From assembly GCA_003167255.1 (NCBI GenBank), contig PMTR01000191.1, positions 49,121 to 93,762 of the forward strand: 44,642 nucleotides of DNA. The letters run 5' to 3'. The notes under the pieces were generated by a model, which had not been told where the DNA came from, ran no database searches, and saw nothing but the letters and a program-made list of their open reading frames with translations. This DNA comes from Bryobacterales bacterium. Its GTDB lineage: Bacteria > Acidobacteriota > Terriglobia > Bryobacterales > Bryobacteraceae. Both the position numbers and the translations under genes were made by a program. Positions 1-44,627 of the stretch are shown piece after piece; the stretch's first letter is position 1, and each line of letters opens with the position of its first letter.

Positions 1-140
1 GCCAGAATTGGCCGCCCCACAAAGCAGCGGAGCCGCAACCAAAATGGGTGCGCTGCCCGAAGCGCCGACAAGAATGTCGGCGTTGCGGGCTTGGAAGCCC
101 GCCCCACGAGGGCTATGGCCCCTGGGGACAGAGAAGTCCC
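1..140. repeat. hairpin-rich intergenic repeat at window start
   Basis: Several short perfect hairpins follow one another: arm CGCCGACA (63-70), loop AGAA, arm TGTCGGCG (75-82); arm GCGGGCT (85-91), loop TGGA, arm AGCCCGC (96-102), followed by CCCAC; GGGC (110-113), loop TATG, GCCC (118-121); GGGAC (125-129), loop AGAGAA, GTCCC (136-140). The stretch around 14-41 (CCCCACAAAGC, then a GC-rich mini-stem and CCGCAACCAA) closely resembles 44600-44627 at the other end of the window. It carries no credible gene and belongs to the dispersed palindromic repeats described at 34360, 40311 and 44519. Confidence 0.7.
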
Positions 141-24079: not shown

Positions 24080-24205
24080 GTGGGGCAGTCCCCCTGGACT
24101 GCGACCGACGCCCCCGTCGGCCTGCTCGCGCTTTGCAGGATGCTGATATCGTTGCTCCGGCCGCGGGACGAGGGCGTCCCGCGCAGACCAGGGGGTCTGC
24201 CCCAC
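24080..24205 (+). repeat. 126-bp palindromic element, copy A
   Basis: The element is bounded by 24-base inverted ends beginning GTGGGG and ending CCCCAC. Each end is itself a hairpin: GCAGTCC, loop CCCT, GGACTGC on the left; GCAGACC, loop AGGG, GGTCTGC on the right. Inside are CCGACG, loop CCCC, CGTCGG and GCGGGACG, loop AGGG, CGTCCCGC, around an unpaired core containing GATGCTGATAT (24139-24149). Copy B at 26483-26607 has the same plan in inverse orientation. No open reading frame is present, so any mobility would depend on a protein encoded elsewhere. Confidence 0.85.
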
Positions 24206-26482: not shown

Positions 26483-26607
26483 GGAGGGCGGACCCCCTGG
26501 TCCGCGCGGGACGCCCTCGTCCCGCAGTCGGATCAGCAATATCAGCATCATGCAAACGGAAGCAGGCCGACGGGGGCGTCGGCCGCGGACCAGGGGGTCC
26601 GCCCTCC
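26483..26607 (-). repeat. 125-bp palindromic element, copy B
   Basis: Perfect 24-base terminal inverted repeats (26483-26506 and 26584-26607) bound the element. Each contains a hairpin with arms GCGGACC and GGTCCGC. Inside are GCGGGACG, loop CCCT, CGTCCCGC and GGCCGACG, loop GGGG, CGTCGGCC, around a core with ATATCAGCATC (26539-26549), the reverse complement of the core of copy A. Stem bases of the outer hairpins differ from copy A by paired, compensated changes. It sits in the 376-base gap between larB and the FG-GAP gene. Confidence 0.88.
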
Positions 26608-33448: not shown

Positions 33449-34333
33449 TCAGAAGAAGAAGTGCTTGGTCCAATCCACCAGCATGTGCAAGGCGGCTGAC
33501 GAAAGGACGGTGGAGGCCTTGCGGAAAACCCAGCCGTAGGCCACGCCGGCGATGGTGGCGAGAATCATGTAGCGCCAGTTGGGCAAGGGCTGAGGTCCGT
33601 TGTCGAGGTGCGCACAGCCGAAAATGAAGGCGGCGGCCAGCAGGGTGCGGGTGCCGGCGCCGAAGCGGAGCATCAGCAGGTTCTGGATGAGCGAGCGGAA
33701 GAGAATCTCTTCGGGCAGCGCGGTGCCGGCGAAGATCAGGCCGGCCGCGGAGACCATGCGGCCGGCGGACTGGGTGGGCGCGTGCGGAAGCGGAATGAAT
33801 CCGAGAGCGATGCCCACGACGGCCAGCACCGGCGCGGCCATGGCGAACCCGGCCAGCGGCAGCCAGTAATCCCGCGCGTGACGCGGCAGGTTGTATTTTA
33901 AGCCGGGCACGGAGCGGAACGCCAGGAAGAGCACCAGGCCGAGTAGAATGGCGATGCCGTATGCCACGGCGTGCAGAAAGCCCTGTGCGGGGCGCGGAAT
34001 GAGACTCGCGCCGGCGGAGAATTCGAGCGGCAGCCAGAGAAGCAGGACGGTGAGGAAGTCCAGCGCCGAGGGACGCGCGACCGGGCCGGCGCCTTGCGCA
34101 TACGCGCAGAGGACGGGAGCGGAAGTGTAGGCGAGGATCAGGAGCGCGAGCGGCAGGCCGGACACGCCGGCGAGCGCGGCCGCAAGGGTGAAGACGGCGG
34201 TGAGTAGCGGCGGCGCGGCCAGGATCCAGGCGGGCCTGCGATGCAAAACGGTTTCGAGAAACCGCCGCGGCGCGGGCGCCAGAAAGGCCAGGACAGCCGC
34301 CAGCAGCAGGGCGAGAATTGCGGTTTGCTCCAT
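33449..34333 (-). CDS. CPBP family intramembrane metalloprotease
   Basis: A 294-residue membrane protein with about eight hydrophobic segments and complete CPBP motifs: PEEILFR (EExxxR), FIFGCAH (FxxxH) and LHMLVDW (HxxxD). The family includes Rce1-like proteases and bacteriocin-immunity proteins; the substrate is unknown. The ATG at 34333 was chosen; a GTG at 34348 would add five residues. It is the first gene of a two-gene CPBP operon, and a dispersed hairpin repeat (34360-34466) lies immediately upstream, between it and uvrA. Confidence 0.86.
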   Translation of the reverse strand: MEQTAILALLLAAVLAFLAPAPRRFLETVLHRRPAWILAAPPLLTAVFTLAAALAGVSGLPLALLILAYTSAPVLCAYAQGAGPVARPSALDFLTVLLLWLPLEFSAGASLIPRPAQGFLHAVAYGIAILLGLVLFLAFRSVPGLKYNLPRHARDYWLPLAGFAMAAPVLAVVGIALGFIPLPHAPTQSAGRMVSAAGLIFAGTALPEEILFRSLIQNLLMLRFGAGTRTLLAAAFIFGCAHLDNGPQPLPNWRYMILATIAGVAYGWVFRKASTVLSSAALHMLVDWTKHFFF

Positions 34334-34359
34334 AGGGATATCTTGCACCTAAAAAGGTT

Positions 34360-34466
34360 GGCAGGCTGAAGCCGCCTATTCAGGCTGCGGACCCGCTTTC
34401 CAGCGGGTCCAGCCTGCTGAAAGCCGGCTGCGGGCAGGATTGCCTGGCAGGATTGCCCGCCCCACA
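34360..34466 (-). repeat. dispersed multi-hairpin element, inverse orientation
   Basis: Read on the minus strand this follows the plan of the copies at 40311 and 44519: GTGGGG, a GCGGGCA hairpin with ATCC loop (here duplicated in a nested way), AGCCGGCT with TTC loop and an imperfect partner, the invariant GGACCCGCT, loop GGAA, AGCGGGTCC, and GCAGCCT, loop GAAT, AGGCGGC (one mismatch). The two mismatches and the duplication make it the least regular of the three full copies. It sits between the promoters of uvrA's downstream neighbour and the CPBP operon. Confidence 0.8.
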
Positions 34467-34498: not shown

Positions 34499-37366
34499 CT
34501 AGCGCGCGGTCCGCAAATAGTATCCGGTGTACGAACCTTCCGTGGCCACGACGGTCTCCGGCGTGCCCACCGCTACTACCCGCCCGCCGCCCGCTCCGCC
34601 TTCCGGGCCCAGGTCGATCACCCAGTCCGCCGCGCGGATCACATCCAGGTTGTGTTCGATAATCACCAGGCTGCCGCCGTTTCCAATCAGCCGCTCGAAC
34701 GATGCCAGCAGCTTGGCGATATCGTCGAAATGCAGCCCCGTGGTCGGCTCGTCGCAGATGAACAGCGTGCCCGCGCACGTCGTCGCCGCCAAGTGCGACG
34801 CCAGCTTCACCCGTTGCGCTTCGCCGCCCGAAAGCGTGGTGGCCGATTGGCCCAACCGCAGGTACCCCAACCCCACGTCGTCCAGCACTTTCAGCCGCGC
34901 CACCAGCCGGTTTGCGCCGTGGAAGAATTCCATGGCTTCCCGCACCGTCAGTTGCAGCACCTCGTGAATGTTCAGCCCGTTGTACTTGACCTCCAGCACG
35001 CCGCTCTTGTACCGCGTGCCCTTACACTCTTCGCACACCAGCTCCACGTCCGCCAGAAACTGCATCTCCACCGTCACGGTGCCGTCGCCCTGGCAGACTT
35101 CGCACCGCCCGCCCGGGATGTTGAATGAGAAGTGACCCGCCGTGTAGCCCCGCTTGGCCGCCTCGCGCGTGGAGGCGAACAGCGCGCGGACGTGGTCGAA
35201 CGCTTTGATATACGTGATCGGGTTCGAGCGCGGCGTCCGCCCGATGGGTGATTGGTCGATCATCACCGTGCCCGCGATCCGCTCCGCGCCTTCCAGCTTC
35301 CGGCACACCATGGGCTGCGACGGCGCGTCCATCCCCTCGCCCGCCGCGCCCTCTCCCGCTTCCGCTGCCGTCTCCCGCGACTTGCTCAGCCCTTCGAGCG
35401 TCCGGTACAGCACGTCGTGCACCAGCGTCGATTTCCCCGACCCCGATACCCCTGTGATGGCCACCATCATTCCCAACGGAATCTCGACGTCGATATTCTT
35501 CAGGTTGTGCGCCCGCGCTCCCAGAATTTTCAGCGCGCGCCGCAGGTTAACCGTCCGCCGCGGCCGCTCCGCCGAAACCCGCAGTTCCCCGCGCAAATAG
35601 CGGGCCGTCAGCGACCCCGCGCCGTTCGCCATCAGCTTTTCGAGCGTCCCTTCGAACACGATGTTCCCGCCATGCTCGCCGGCGCCCGGCCCCAGGTCCA
35701 CAATGTGGTTCGCCGCCTTCATCAACTCCGCGTCGTGTTCCACCACCACGATGGTGTTCCCCAGTTCGCGCAGTTCTTCCAGGATGCGGATCAGCCGGCC
35801 GGTGTCGCGCGTGTGCAGCCCGATGGACGGCTCATCCAGCACGTAGCACGCCCCCACCAGGCGCGAGCCCAGGCACGTCGCCAGTTGGATGCGCTGCGCT
35901 TCCCCGCCCGAAAGCGTCGACGCCAGCCGGTCCAGCGTCAGGTAATCCAGCCCCACGTCCACCAGGAACTTCAGCCGCTGCCGGATCTCCACCAGGATCT
36001 TGTCCGCGATGGCCGTCTCTTCCGGGCTCAGCGCCAGCCCATCGAAAAAGTCCCGCGCTTCCGCGATGTTCATGCGCGAGACGTCCGCCAGGTTGCATCC
36101 GCCCACGCGCACGTAGAGCGCCTCCTTGCGCAGCCGCGCGCCCTTGCACTCCGGGCACTGCGCATAGCCGCGGTAGCGGCTCAGAAACACGCGCACGTGC
36201 AGCCTATATTTCTTGGCTTCCAGGTGATCGAAAAAACGCCGGATGAAACCGTCCACGCTCTCGCGCTCTTCCGCCGTCAAGTCGCAGATCGGCACGTTAA
36301 GCCGCGCGTTCTTGTCATGCTTCTTGAAATTCGCCAGCCAGGAGCGGTATTTCGGCTTGGTCCATGGCTCCACGGCGCCGCCCGCCATCGTCTTGGTGAC
36401 GTCCGGAATCACCCGGTTCATGTCGAAATCGATGGTATTGCCGAACCCCTGGCAGCGCGGGCATGCCCCCACCGGCGAGTTGAAGCTGAACAGGGTCGGC
36501 TCCGGCTCCACGAACTCCAGGCCGCACGTCTTGCACTGGAACCGTTCATTGAACCGCAGTTGCTGCCCTCCGGCGGCGTTCTCGAAAATTACTTCGCCCG
36601 ATTCCCGATAGCAGATTTCGATGGTGTCCACCAGCCGCTGGTGCAGATCCGGGCCTATCGCGATGCGGTCCACCAGCAGGAACACCGGCTTCGAAAAATC
36701 GATGTCCAGCAGCGATTCGGGCGTCGAAAATTCAAAAAGCCGCCCTTCCTGAAAGAGCCGGCTGAATCCCTTCTTGCGCAGCTCGAACAGGTGATCGCGC
36801 AGCGCCTGCGTGGTGGCGTGCTGCCCGCACGGAAACAACGCGTACCACCGCGACCCTTCCGGCAGCTCGATCAACTGCGCAGCCACTTCATCCACGGTAT
36901 CTTTGCGCACGCGCGTGCCGCAGTTCGGGCAAAACGTCTGCCCCACGCGCGCGAACAGCAGGCGCAGAAAATCGTGGCATTCGGTGGAAGTCGCCACCGT
37001 CGATCGCGGATTGCGGCTGGTATTCTTCTGCCGGATGGCTACCGCCGGCGCGATCCCGTCAATCTCATCCACGTCCGGCTTTTCCATGCGCTCCAGGAAT
37101 TGCCGCGCGTAGGCCGAGAGTGACTCCACGTACCGCCGCTGTCCCTCCGCATAGATGGTGTCGAACGCCAGCGACGATTTCCCCGACCCCGAAACTCCCG
37201 TCACCACCGTCAACTGGTTGTGGGGAATGGAAAGCGAAATGTTCTTGAGGTTATGGACCCGTGCCCCTCGGATCCGGATGTAATCCTGCACAGGCGGTTC
37301 GCGTCTCACGTGCACAGCCGTCCGCCAGCTTCCCGTGCCGTTTGCAATTGCGCCACCTCTTGTCAT
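34499..37366 (-). CDS. uvrA: excinuclease ABC subunit A
   Basis: A 955-residue UvrA, the usual length, the damage-recognition ATPase of nucleotide excision repair. Both ABC modules are complete: Walker [10 protein letters not shown] and GVSGSGKST, signature LSGGEAQR in each half, and Walker B ending DEPS/DEPT. Zinc-finger segments CPRCQG, CPECKG and C-EVCQG ... CEECKG are present. The segment after [15 protein letters not shown] differs from the commoner GTVTEIYDYLR, suggesting a paralogous subtype. Start ATG 37366 is preceded by CGAGG seven bases upstream. uvrB and uvrC are not in the window. Confidence 0.96.
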
Positions 37367-37443: not shown

Positions 37444-37467
37444 GGCAGGCGGCACCGCCTGCCCCAC
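37444..37467. repeat. minimal single-hairpin repeat
   Basis: GGCAGGCGG (37444-37452), spacer CA, CCGCCTGCC (37455-37463) is a perfect stem followed by CCAC. The TGCCCCAC flank matches that of the larger dispersed elements. It lies in the 223-base divergent space between uvrA and the 130-residue gene. Confidence 0.6.
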
Positions 37468-38079: not shown

Positions 38080-38140
38080 CCTGAAAGCGCGCTAAGCTAT
38101 GGATTCGGTCTTGGGGATTCAGCCCTGGAGGTCTCTTTTT

Positions 38141-40219
38141 ATGAATATTCGCCCGCAAGTCTTCCGCACCCTGGTTATCTCTTCGTGCGCCGCCCTGCTG
38201 TTCAGCGTTCCCGTGCGCTCCGACGAAGGCATGTGGACCTTCGACAATCCACCGCTCAAGCAGTTGCAGGAGAAGTACCACTTTACGCCCACCCAGCAGT
38301 GGCTGGACCACGTCCGCCTTTCCTGCGTACGGCTGAACGACGGCGGTTCCGGCTCTTTCGTCAGCGCCCACGGCCTGCTGCTCACCAATCATCACGTGGC
38401 CCGCGGCCAGTTGCAAAAGAACTCCACCGCCCAGCACGACTACCTCAAGAACGGCTTTTACGCCGCCACGCCCGATCAGGAAATGAAATCGCCGGACCTC
38501 GAAGTCAACGTGCTGGTCTCGTTCGAAAACGTCACCGAGCGGGTGGCCGCCGCGGTGAAGAAGGCCACGAACCCCGAAGAAGAATTCGCCGCCCGCCGCG
38601 CGGTGATGGCTGGTATCGAGCGCGAGAGCCAGCAAAAGACCGGCTTCCGCTCCGACGTCGTCACGCTCTACAACGGCGGCGAATACTGGCTCTACCGCTA
38701 CCAGAAGTACACCGACGTGCGCCTGGTCTTCGCGCCCGAGCAGCAGATCGCCTTTTTTGGCGGAGATCCCGACAACTTCACCTATCCCCGCTACGACCTC
38801 GACATGGCCCTGTTCCGCGTCTACCAGGACGGCAAGCCCATCGAGAGCAAGGATTATTTACAGTGGAATCCCGCCGGCGCGGCCGATAGCGAGCTGGTTT
38901 TCGTGGTGGGGCACCCCGGTTCCACCGCGCGTCTCGACACCGTCGCGCAACTCGAAGCCGTTCGCGATCTCGCGATGCCCCTCACCATCAAGAATCTCAA
39001 GAGCCGCATTGCGGCGCTCGAACGCTACGCTTCGTTGGGCGATGAGCAGGCGCGCCAAACCGGTTCCACCATTTTCAGCCTCAACAACAGCCTCAAGGCG
39101 GATGATGGCCGGTTACGCGGTCTGCTGGACCCCGGCGTGTTGGCCGCCAAACAAAAGGACGAAGCCGATTTCCGCACCAAGGTGATGGCCAATCCGCAAT
39201 GGAAGGCCGCCTACGGCGGCGCCTGGGACGCCATCGCGGCCGCCGAAAAGGCCGCCGCCCCGCGCATCAGGCAACGTCTTTTGCGCTCGCTCGACTCCGG
39301 GCTTGCCACGCTTTCGACCACCATCGTGCAGTATGTCGCCGAAATCAAGAAGCCCGATGGCGAACGCCTGCCGGGCTATCACGATTCGCAACTCGAATCC
39401 ACGCGCTTGCGCCTGTACTCTCCGGCCCCGATTTATCCGGCCATGGAAATCGCGCGCCTCGCTGGCTCGCTCGAACTGGCGCTGGCCGAACTCAGCCCGG
39501 ATGACGCTTTTGTGAAGACCGTGCTGGATGGCCGCTCGCCTCAGCGGGCCGCCACGGAGCTGGTCAACGGTACAACCCTCTCCGACCCCGCGGTGCGCCA
39601 CAAGCTGGTGGATGGCGGCGAATCCGCCCTGGCCGCTTCCACCGATCCCATGATCGCGATGGCGCGCCGTCTCGATCCGCTGCGCCGCGAGCTCACCAAG
39701 TGGTTCGAGGATCACGTGCAAAGCGTGGAACAGCGCGCCGGCGAACAACTCGGCAAAGCGCGCTTCGCCGTCTACGGCAAGACCACCTATCCAGACGCCA
39801 CTTTCACGCTGCGCCTTTCCTACGGCCAGGTGCAGGGCTATCCCATGAACGGCACCAAAGCGCCCGCCAAGACCACTCTGTTCGGCTTATACGACCGCGC
39901 CGCCGGCTTCAACTATGAGGGACCGTTCTACCTGCCCTCCCGCTACCAGGAAGGCCGCGATAAACTCAACCTGGCCACGCCGCTCAATTTCGTCACCACC
40001 AACGACATCATCGGCGGCAATTCGGGATCGCCGGTCATCAATGCGAAGGGTGAAATCGTTGGCCTGATCTTCGACGGCAACATCGAATCCCTGGTGGGCG
40101 ATTTCGTCTACGACGGATCCACCAACCGCTCCGTAGCCGTCCACACCGCCGCCATGACCGAGGCTCTGGGCAAGCTCTACAATGCCAAAGGGCTGGTGAA
40201 CGAACTGACCGCCAAGTGA
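38141..40219 (+). CDS. S46 family dipeptidyl-peptidase
   Basis: A 692-residue exported serine peptidase of the DPP7/DPP11 type. A signal peptide (VFRTLVISSCAALLFSVPVRS) starts at ATG 38141, with GGAGG about ten bases upstream. The catalytic His lies in LLTNHHVARG (H85) and the catalytic Ser in GGNSGSP (S628); family motifs ENVTERV and FGGDPDNFTYPRYDLDMALFRVY are also present. These enzymes remove dipeptides from the N-termini of oligopeptides in the periplasm. The motif ALFGLYDRA, GPFYLP is likewise typical. It stands alone. Confidence 0.95.
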   Translation: MNIRPQVFRTLVISSCAALLFSVPVRSDEGMWTFDNPPLKQLQEKYHFTPTQQWLDHVRLSCVRLNDGGSGSFVSAHGLLLTNHHVARGQLQKNSTAQHDYLKNGFYAATPDQEMKSPDLEVNVLVSFENVTERVAAAVKKATNPEEEFAARRAVMAGIERESQQKTGFRSDVVTLYNGGEYWLYRYQKYTDVRLVFAPEQQIAFFGGDPDNFTYPRYDLDMALFRVYQDGKPIESKDYLQWNPAGAADSELVFVVGHPGSTARLDTVAQLEAVRDLAMPLTIKNLKSRIAALERYASLGDEQARQTGSTIFSLNNSLKADDGRLRGLLDPGVLAAKQKDEADFRTKVMANPQWKAAYGGAWDAIAAAEKAAAPRIRQRLLRSLDSGLATLSTTIVQYVAEIKKPDGERLPGYHDSQLESTRLRLYSPAPIYPAMEIARLAGSLELALAELSPDDAFVKTVLDGRSPQRAATELVNGTTLSDPAVRHKLVDGGESALAASTDPMIAMARRLDPLRRELTKWFEDHVQSVEQRAGEQLGKARFAVYGKTTYPDATFTLRLSYGQVQGYPMNGTKAPAKTTLFGLYDRAAGFNYEGPFYLPSRYQEGRDKLNLATPLNFVTTNDIIGGNSGSPVINAKGEIVGLIFDGNIESLVGDFVYDGSTNRSVAVHTAAMTEALGKLYNAKGLVNELTAK

Positions 40220-40310
40220 GCAAGTGGGACAGGCCATCGACTTTCGTGGCCTGTCTGACTCGCTAATGCACGGCTGCTTGACAGGGGCGAAAAAGCAGGG
40301 TGCCGACGGA

Positions 40311-40398
40311 GCGGGGCAGCCAATCCTGGCTGCAAGCCGCCTTTCAGGCGGCTGGACCCGCTGGAAAGCGGGTCCGCGGGCTGAATAGCCCGCCCCAC
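40311..40398 (+). repeat. dispersed four-hairpin element, copy 2
   Basis: Four consecutive perfect hairpins: GCAGCCA, loop ATCC, TGGCTGC (40316-40333); AGCCGCCT, loop TTC, AGGCGGCT (40335-40353); GGACCCGCT, loop GGAA, AGCGGGTCC (40354-40375); GCGGGCT, loop GAAT, AGCCCGC (40376-40393), then CCCAC. Loops equal those of the copy at 44519, while stems 1, 2 and 4 differ by fully compensated changes. It lies between the S46 peptidase and the Tol-Pal operon end. Confidence 0.9.
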
Positions 40399-40442
40399 GA
40401 ACAGCGAGGGTCCTCACAGTTTTTCATGAAATTCCGTCCCAC

Positions 40443-41375
40443 CTACTTCTTCTTAGTGGTCTTCGCCGGCACCTTCGCCACCGGACAGTTATAACCCATC
40501 GATTTCAATTGGTCGCAGGCCTGCGACGCCAGATCGTTCCTCGGATACCGCTTGATCAATTCCAGGAATTCCGAGTGGCTCTCCGTCAGCCGGCTCAGGC
40601 TCTTCAACACCATCCCCTTGGAGAAAAGCGCGTCGGGCGTCTTGTTGTTCTCCGAATATTTTTCGAGAACCGTGTCGAAATCCTGCACCGCCTGATCGAA
40701 ATTCTTCTGCTGGCGATGGATGTCGCCGATGTAATACTGCGCGTTGGCCGCCAGGTCCGTGTTGCCGTACCACTTCAAATACTGCTGATACTCCTGCAGC
40801 GCCAGGTCGTACTTCTTGCTGCCGCGGTCGCGGTTGGCGTTGGCGTAGAGCTCCTGCGCGGAAATCGACGGCGTTTCCGGCACGGCTGCCGCCGCCGCGT
40901 CGCCGCTTCCCGTTGCCGCCGAGGGAGGTGGCGGGGGCGGCGTCTGCAGAATCTTCATCGCGTTGTTCAGGTCCGTCATCTGCTGCTGCAGTTTCCCCAT
41001 CATCCCGTTGAGGTCGGTCACGGATTGCTGCAGCGCCCGCAAATCCTGGTCCATCCCGTCCAGCCGCGCGCCCAAACCCGTCACCGGCGTCACCACCTTG
41101 GATTCCAGGTCCTTCAGGCTCTGTTGCAGGTTGTTCTGAATCACGGCTACCCCGGTATTGGACCGGTTTGACGTGTCCAGCGCCTGCTGCACCAGCACCG
41201 TCAGCGCCGCCAGTTGCTTATCCTGCGATTCCTTGAGCAGCCGGACCTGCTCCTGCAGGCTGGCAACATCGCGCTGCAGTTCCTGTAGTTTCGGGTCCGC
41301 GGCGCGCGAGCCCATGGGGGCCAGCACAATCGCCATCGCCGCCGCCAGGGCGCACAACATGAAGCGTCGGAACAT
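40443..41375 (-). CDS. CpoB/YbgF-like Tol-Pal cell division coordinator
   Basis: A 310-residue exported protein with signal peptide (LCALAAAMAIVLAPMGSRA). A coiled-coil region (LQELQRDVASLQEQVRLLKE and on to about residue 145) is followed by a Pro linker, then three TPR-like repeats (AQELYANANRDRGSKKYDLALQEYQQYLKWY, LAANAQYYIGDIHRQQKNFDQAVQDF, NKTPDALFSKGMVLKSL). This is the CpoB plan, with the trimerising coiled coil and C-terminal TPR domain, and its place after pal agrees. CpoB links Tol-Pal to peptidoglycan synthesis in E. coli. GAGGAG precedes the ATG at 41375. Last gene of the operon. Confidence 0.9.
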   Translation of the reverse strand: MFRRFMLCALAAAMAIVLAPMGSRAADPKLQELQRDVASLQEQVRLLKESQDKQLAALTVLVQQALDTSNRSNTGVAVIQNNLQQSLKDLESKVVTPVTGLGARLDGMDQDLRALQQSVTDLNGMMGKLQQQMTDLNNAMKILQTPPPPPPSAATGSGDAAAAAVPETPSISAQELYANANRDRGSKKYDLALQEYQQYLKWYGNTDLAANAQYYIGDIHRQQKNFDQAVQDFDTVLEKYSENNKTPDALFSKGMVLKSLSRLTESHSEFLELIKRYPRNDLASQACDQLKSMGYNCPVAKVPAKTTKKK

Positions 41376-44518: not shown

Positions 44519-44627
44519 GTGGGGCGGGCAATCCTGCCCGCAGCCGGCTTTCAGCCGGCTGGACCCGCTGGAAAGCGGGTCCGCAGCCTGAATAGGCTGC
44601 CCCACAAAGCGGCAGAGCCGCAACCAA
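44519..44627 (+). repeat. dispersed four-hairpin element, copy 3, with tail
   Basis: GTGGGG (44519-44524) leads into GCGGGCA, loop ATCC, TGCCCGC (44524-44541); AGCCGGCT, loop TTC, AGCCGGCT (44542-44560); GGACCCGCT, loop GGAA, AGCGGGTCC (44561-44582); GCAGCCT, loop GAAT, AGGCTGC (44583-44600), then CCCAC. A further hairpin GCGGC, loop AGA, GCCGC (44609-44621) and CAACCAA follow, shared with the start of the window. It sits 17 bases upstream of the TonB/TolA-like start. Confidence 0.9.

Follow-up and report, generated by a model that had tools for sequence, protein, structure and literature searches.

The window, i.e. the whole stretch of 44,642 nucleotides analysed here from the genome of a Bryobacterales bacterium, contains two full copies of a string of four hairpins, located at 44519-44605 and 40311-40398, both on the plus strand. 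The two copies have the order of the hairpins and the loops ATCC, TTC, GGAA, and GAAT in common. A third copy on the minus strand is damaged, and a fragment of a further member lies at the very beginning of the window. The parts of the 44519 copy and the remaining copies with their settings are as follows:

44519-44523, plus strand: left foot GTGGG, a GT[AG]G tetranucleotide of the RAYT type with one more G; pairing partner of 44601-44605; the same foot bounds RAYT genes
44524-44541, plus strand: hairpin 1 of the left arm, GCGGGCA-ATCC-TGCCCGC
44542-44560, plus strand: hairpin 2 of the left arm, AGCCGGCT-TTC-AGCCGGCT
44561-44582, plus strand: hairpin 3, which is the right arm's hairpin 2; minus-strand reading GGACCCGCT-TTCC-AGCGGGTCC
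44583-44600, plus strand: hairpin 4, which is the right arm's hairpin 1; minus-strand reading GCAGCCT-ATTC-AGGCTGC
44601-44605, plus strand: right foot CCCAC, which reads GTGGG on the minus strand and completes the five-way junction
40311-40398, plus strand: second full copy, starting with GCGGGGC and with one extra A between hairpins 1 and 2; convergent frames on either side, an S46 peptidase (38099-40219) and a TPR protein (40443-41375)
34366-34465, minus strand: third, damaged copy with a duplicated hairpin-1 segment, an unpaired stem 2 change and a decayed right end; located between an Rce1-like frame (33449-34348) and a UvrA-like frame (34499-37366)
1-20, plus strand: GCCAGAATTGGCCGCCCCAC, part of the right arm of a further member; truncated by an assembly gap (NN) immediately ahead of the window

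The 40311 copy departs from the 44519 copy at two base pairs of stem 1, one of stem 2, and two of stem 4, stem 3 being identical, and all of these differences are compensated in the partner strand. The initial annotation had described exactly this, meaning four hairpins with their loops and order and five compensated double substitutions, and inside the four stems the description is confirmed. Its statement that the ends are identical has to be amended: the left end reads GTGGGGC at 44519 and GCGGGGC at 40311, and the latter copy contains the extra A. Overlooked as well was that the outer ends GTGGG and CCCAC of the 44519 copy pair and form a fifth helix. In this closing helix, the T-to-C change of the 40311 copy is uncompensated; the claim that there is no uncompensated change holds inside the four stems of the two full copies. 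In the copy at 34366-34465, one change in stem 2 (GCCGGC/GCAGGC) has no counterpart on the partner side.

At minimum free energy, the 44519 copy adopts a five-way junction that is closed by GTGGG/CCCAC and contains the four hairpins, with zero unpaired bases at the junction. As DNA, it folds at -41.3 kcal/mol, a value reached by 0 of 200 dinucleotide-shuffled sequences, which lie at -19.7 +/- 2.6 kcal/mol (z -8.3), and as RNA, it adopts the same structure (z -7.7). The tetranucleotide GT[AG]G forms the 5' hairpin foot that directly precedes hairpin 1 and, read on the opposite strand, hairpin 4; the left foot of the 40311 copy deviates from it with GCGGG. The left and right arms of the string are two inverted units that lie close together with their feet pointing outward.

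Further hairpin units are found in the window. The stretches 24080-24205 and 26483-26607 belong to another multihairpin family (loops CCCCTG, CCCC, and AGGG), the second of them with GGAGG/CCTCC feet, and units related to this family flank RAYT genes in other genomes (L139, L149, L150). A single-hairpin REP-like unit, GGCAGGCGGCACCGCCTGCC followed by CCAC, is located at 37444-37467. At 55-107, a two-hairpin right arm (CGCCGACA-AGAA-TGTCGGCG, GCGGGCTTGGAAGCCCGC, CCCAC) resembles the hairpins flanking the RAYT gene at C16 (L025) of the same genome.

The arms of the string recur at the ends of RAYT genes. The genome to which the window belongs contains 16 matches to PF01797 (Y1 transposase), and its RAYT at C182:8659-9234 on the minus strand is preceded by GTGGG, a hairpin with the loop AATTCT, and a hairpin with the loop TTTA, which together correspond to the left half of the string. 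The right end of this gene has decayed to GCCGCCCCAC, with most of the right arm gone; given this loss, the RAYT may no longer be active. Its protein reaches 31.1 bits with the Pfam model Y1_Tnp, over the cut-off of 23 bits, and 64.6 bits with the NCBIfam model REP_Tyr_transpos, under the cut-off of 80, and a search of solved structures with the RAYT sequence gave no match at E <= 0.001. Genomes of other genera contain relatives at 58-69% identity. Seven of them (L133, L134, L135, L136, L138, L147, L152) are bounded by both arms, clean and inverted, with the layout of a foot, then a hairpin with an AATxxT loop, and then a hairpin with a TTTCA-type loop; at L137, L146, and L302, one arm is clean, and the other is odd, decayed, or cut by a gap. 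Because the ends of the RAYT genes match, the string can be read as two arms that lack the gene between them: hairpins 1-2 make up the left one, and hairpins 4-3, taken from the opposite strand, the right one. The parent element is probably a RAYT gene that carries these arms in inverted orientation at either end. The suggestion of the initial annotation that the hairpins are REP/BIME-like sites for a Y1 transposase (RAYT), made along with the advice to look for such a gene in the genome, is strongly supported by the 16 PF01797 matches, by the double-hairpin unit at the left end of the C182 gene, and by the arms at the ends of RAYT genes.

Two other RAYT genes are bounded differently. At L030 (about 2130-2170), the right-hand REP is translated into a portion of the protein's C terminus (RLAGESACPT), meaning that repeat and coding sequence overlap. 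The RAYT at C155 (L026, reverse strand 1683-1738 and 2305-2321) is accompanied by three consecutive hairpins on the left (loops GTT, GTC, and GCA) and one on the right.

Among the 71 RAYT loci examined, which are a subset of the RAYTs in the genomes, a footed AATxxT hairpin is present at exactly 11 and absent at 60, some of the latter having AAT hairpins by chance but no foot. In a tree of 60 proteins (nine of the 40 loci added yielded no frame, and two short proteins were excluded), all 11 AAT-loop RAYT proteins form one pure clade with a support of 0.98. A first tree of 30 proteins, in which nine proteins have no arm type and L148, L303, and L304 received their arm labels by visual inspection, placed 10 of 10 AAT-loop RAYTs in one clade (support 0.94), grouped five CCC-loop RAYTs together, and located two single-hairpin types elsewhere. 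The RAYT of genome G100 at C204 (59% identity) has other loops and lies outside the AAT clade. The foot can differ, too: the RAYT of genome G063 at C102 has a GGAG foot on either end, and a GGAG or CTCC foot is found in 6 of the 12 mini-elements sampled in this genome versus 0 of 50 in other genomes. Foot type, like loop type, appears to follow the RAYT, and the tracking of RAYT clade by loop type points to codivergence of RAYT and repeat.

In the own genome of the window (7.35 Mb, 200 contigs), the pattern GTGGGGC...GCCCCAC with 30-90 bases between its ends occurs in 45 stretches, as opposed to five for a reversed control pattern; these 45 stretches comprise several hairpin families with the common ends GTGGGGC/GCCCCAC. 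A covariance model, as proposed with the initial annotation, was built from seven own-genome copies (alignment A3; the poorly aligning L013 and L039 were left out). It identifies 17 places in the own genome at E <= 1.3e-8, the seven model-building copies among them. At E <= 0.01, it has matches in 33 of the 101 family genomes sampled, own genome counted, in a scan with strict filters and up to 44 candidates scored per genome, in which sister families also match. Furthermore, the model scores the reverse strand of many copies at a lower level (70 bits versus 114 bits forward for the 44519 copy), which is expected of a string composed of a left arm and an inverted right arm. The exact left-arm pattern is found in at least 102 stretches of named genomes, a count from which the window's own records are possibly omitted, and the 80 matches listed carry titles of Bryobacterales, Bryobacteraceae, Candidatus Solibacter, Solibacteraceae, Terriglobia, or Acidobacteriia. 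Two stretches, L035 1501-1586 and L038 1501-1592, are composites of this string's left arm and the right arm of another hairpin family.

High copy number coincides with the matching RAYT. At least 30 model matches occur in eight of nine genomes with an AAT-loop RAYT versus 2 of 92 others (Fisher P 2e-9, genome kinship ignored). The exceptions are G014, which has an AAT-loop RAYT but one match, and G049 and G067, which have many matches and no such RAYT seen. Among the others are 41 genomes with a RAYT hit, for 33 of which at least one RAYT locus was examined and for eight of which (weaker hits) none.

The copies are extragenic. Predicted genes contain none of the 19 own-genome copies examined, as judged with a rough gene finder, namely a codon score trained on 17 window frames, which places some nearest genes more than 900 bases away. 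In this set, L058 has no gene call, and the 44519 copy has none on its right. The 17 copies with gene calls on both sides are located between co-directional (10), convergent (four), or divergent genes (three), and in the 10 co-directional settings, the element runs with the genes six times and against them four times. As for the pairing itself, the alignment of the seven own-genome copies shows two-sided changes at 5 of 36 pairs. The initial annotation had named unpaired stem changes in more copies as a sign against its reading; such changes do occur in single copies, yet 98.0% of the 251 pair cells in this alignment are standard. In the outer hairpins, 787 of 805 cells are Watson-Crick, and 18 are not, including eight G.T and four A.C; the cells stem from 115 of 124 outer arms of 62 copies, and since arms with less than five paired positions were skipped, the mismatch rate is a lower bound. 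Many of the stem differences are flips from G-C to C-G.

Genome G020, of the same genus, lacks the element at four loci: the 44519 locus upstream of a TonB-domain gene, L042, L041, and L039. At the 44519 locus, the extra DNA also holds further sequence and an assembly gap; at L039, G020 is missing the entire larger inserted repeat in which the string is embedded; and at L041 and L042, the edges of the difference are ragged. A clean single-element empty site with target duplication was not found in this comparison. Other flanks searched in G020 were matched on one side only (L036), on two contigs (L037), or over 40 bases at most (L034), and the 40311 locus is uninformative, as the G020 contigs break off between its two neighbouring genes. 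At about 40250-40440 of the window and at L010, L016, L018, and L039, the string is embedded in a longer repeat flanked by CGAAAAAG and, at the opposite end, TTTTTCATGAA. The extra DNA at L041 (about 1480-1590) and in the 44500 region of the window together with L197 adjoins CTAG and has short repeats at its edges; this adjacency at L041 and in the 44500 region possibly reflects the target preference of a surrounding insertion.

Several explanations can be given for a covarying structure of this kind. It would be a structured RNA element if the fold were selected in a transcript, be it as a 3'-end stabiliser, an attenuator, or a small RNA. The strong RNA fold (z -7.7) and a covariation that exceeds column shuffles agree with this, but the window contains no Rfam match at gathering thresholds, the arms match the ends of transposase genes, and the model also recognizes the reverse strand of many copies. 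The near-even orientation in co-directional settings (six with, four against), the location of 3 of 19 copies between divergent genes, and the lack of a clear G-U excess (G.T 8 versus A.C 4 of 805 cells) leave the RNA 3'-end stability proposed in the initial annotation unsupported by context, orientation, or pairing type. An RNA element is, on this evidence, very unlikely. Selection on the fold is not the sole possible source of compensated changes either: template switching between the two halves of a hairpin at replication can alter both strands of a stem at once, as described in the available text of PMC8794818, and would be compatible with a RAYT-linked element. It would account for the many G-C to C-G flips and the few unpaired intermediates (18 of 805 cells not Watson-Crick), and duplicated hairpin segments are seen in some copies (34366-34465, L039), but alone it leaves the constant loops and foot as well as the match between loop type and RAYT clade unexplained. 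That this process, rather than selection on the fold, has generated the compensated changes is a real possibility, albeit not the favoured one. As template switching can produce both changes in a single step, the covariation seen here does not distinguish selection from this mutational mechanism. Compensatory changes have already been described for REP sequences (PMC2817692 and PMC3116915, in the text available). The verdict of the initial annotation that the double substitutions are strong evidence for selection of the folded form is, thus, too strong.

Larger, ordinary MITEs moved by another transposase could, in addition, carry the hairpins as passengers. The common longer repeat around the 40311 copy, L039, L010, L016, and L018, the complete lack of the L039 repeat in G020, and the CTAG and short repeats next to the extra DNA at 44519 and L041 are in line with such transport, whereas the short flanks of other copies differ from those of the longer repeat, and the arms occur at the ends of RAYT genes. 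This makes passenger transport a very unlikely explanation for the family. The string is, with high probability, a non-autonomous, RAYT-linked miniature DNA element of soil acidobacteria that belongs to the REP/REPIN type and has two hairpins per arm, its activity being presumed. The basis for this is the structure, the match of the arms to RAYT genes, the correspondence of loop and clade, the enrichment in genomes with such RAYTs, the extragenic location of the copies, and the G020 loci without the element.

Mechanistically, the RAYT would bind the single-stranded, folded arms by their foot and loops and would cleave at the ends of the element, which could thereby spread during replication. 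The stems would need pairing only; selection, template switching, or a combination of them may let their sequence drift through compensated pairs, with the loops and the foot staying constant. The RAYT of Stenotrophomonas maltophilia, which uses perfect palindromes, may serve by analogy as a direct model for drifting stems and constant loops: according to the available text of PMC8266576, a base in the loop is critical and GTAG is needed for cleavage, stem changes were milder in effect, and stem mismatches affected or almost eliminated cleavage.

The two arms of one element are mostly not alike. When the 62 copies are folded as DNA, 28 form a closed four-hairpin junction, nine form four hairpins without the closing stem, 23 form a long hairpin in which the arms pair with each other, and two form neither. 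The long-hairpin fold is seen in seven of eight copies of genome G046, and G046 and G063 copies are mostly or often of this kind. Identical outer stems are found in 4 of 47 mini-elements versus 16.5 expected by within-genome reshuffling (0 of 20000 shuffles as low), although the copies are related by descent and short-read assembly disfavours perfect palindromes. The set of 47 comprises 39 of 56 and 7 of 45 pattern matches plus the 40311 copy, eight of the 47 having a mismatch inside the outer stem; the selection omits all but one of five identical G037 copies as well as composites, members of other repeat families, and copies whose register differs (e.g. C155, G046 C66). When each genome-and-type is counted once, the number is 4 of 20 versus 7.7 expected (P 0.01), and in a model-based set of the 40 of 62 copies with both arms readable, it is 1 of 40 versus 11.2 expected. 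RAYT genes with both arms clean have identical outer stems in seven of seven cases, two of which are sister copies in one genome. A general rule that arms avoid identity is, however, contradicted by other families of the same genomes (GTGGGGCAGGCGCTTTCGCCTGCCAAC pairs and the GGACCxCCTGGTCC family), which have identical outer stems, and by the 23 of 62 copies that fold arm to arm. Moreover, identical arms may merely have been lost through palindrome instability or short-read assembly. The unequal arms are, therefore, a lead rather than a rule. An extended, speculative and on the whole unlikely version of the RAYT-linked element can be built on them, in which a Bryobacterales RAYT lineage evolved a two-hairpin recognition arm and the gene-less miniatures are mobile, single-stranded, hetero-armed DNA cloverleaves instead of long REPIN hairpins. 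Herein, the stems would be kept different, so that each arm folds on itself while the feet pair mutually, and the loops would act as a RAYT-specific address.

Several described systems share features with the element. Like REPINs (PMC3116915, text available), it has two close inverted REP units, scattered extragenic copies, a link to a RAYT, and compensatory changes between the sides. However, a REPIN as presented there is one long hairpin that arises by pairing across the REPs, whereas each arm here forms two local hairpins, and the outer stems are usually unequal. Mutual pairing of the arms, which strictly defines a REPIN, is absent from the 44519 copy and found in 23 of 62 copies, 37 of 62 forming four separate hairpins. 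In REPtrons (PMC2817692, text available), a RAYT gene likewise has inverted repeats with a GT(A/G)G head followed by a GC-rich palindrome, RAYT and repeat codiverge, and palindromes are preserved despite changed letters; in contrast to the one hairpin per end given there, the elements described here have two, with loops of the AATxxT and TTTCA types. TIRtrons/TIRYTs (PMC3733652) are RAYT-like genes bounded by longer inverted repeats, and the available text names Acidobacteria and some TIRs that are repeated families. The remark in the initial annotation that no acidobacterial element of this design had been described is, hence, partly wrong as regards RAYT-like genes with terminal inverted repeats. 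"Double palindromic TIRs" are mentioned in a figure legend of that article, the species not being given in the available text, which contains no description of a four-hairpin miniature with unequal arms either. The class 3 TnpA-REP system of Solibacter usitatus with its approximately 600 atypical structures (PMC6006769, text available) is similar in being acidobacterial, high-copy folded DNA near Y1 genes. As a candidate for the present element, it was rejected, its foot being CnGA as opposed to GTGGG or GGAGG here. A literature search of titles and abstract beginnings, with few subscription journals and with figures and supplements outside its range, retrieved no description of the four-hairpin element. 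Unusual here is that each arm has two hairpins, that 28 of 62 copies fold into a closed cloverleaf, and that the stems of the arms are mostly unequal.

The finding places a striking, covarying acidobacterial structure within the RAYT/REP system, and it is a warning that covariation alone should not be read as selection on RNA. That the arms are equal at the gene but mostly unequal in the miniature is a contrast absent from the available text of the REPIN papers. With RAYT clades in which the loops have changed alongside the protein while the two-hairpin frame is conserved, the specificity of RAYTs becomes testable.
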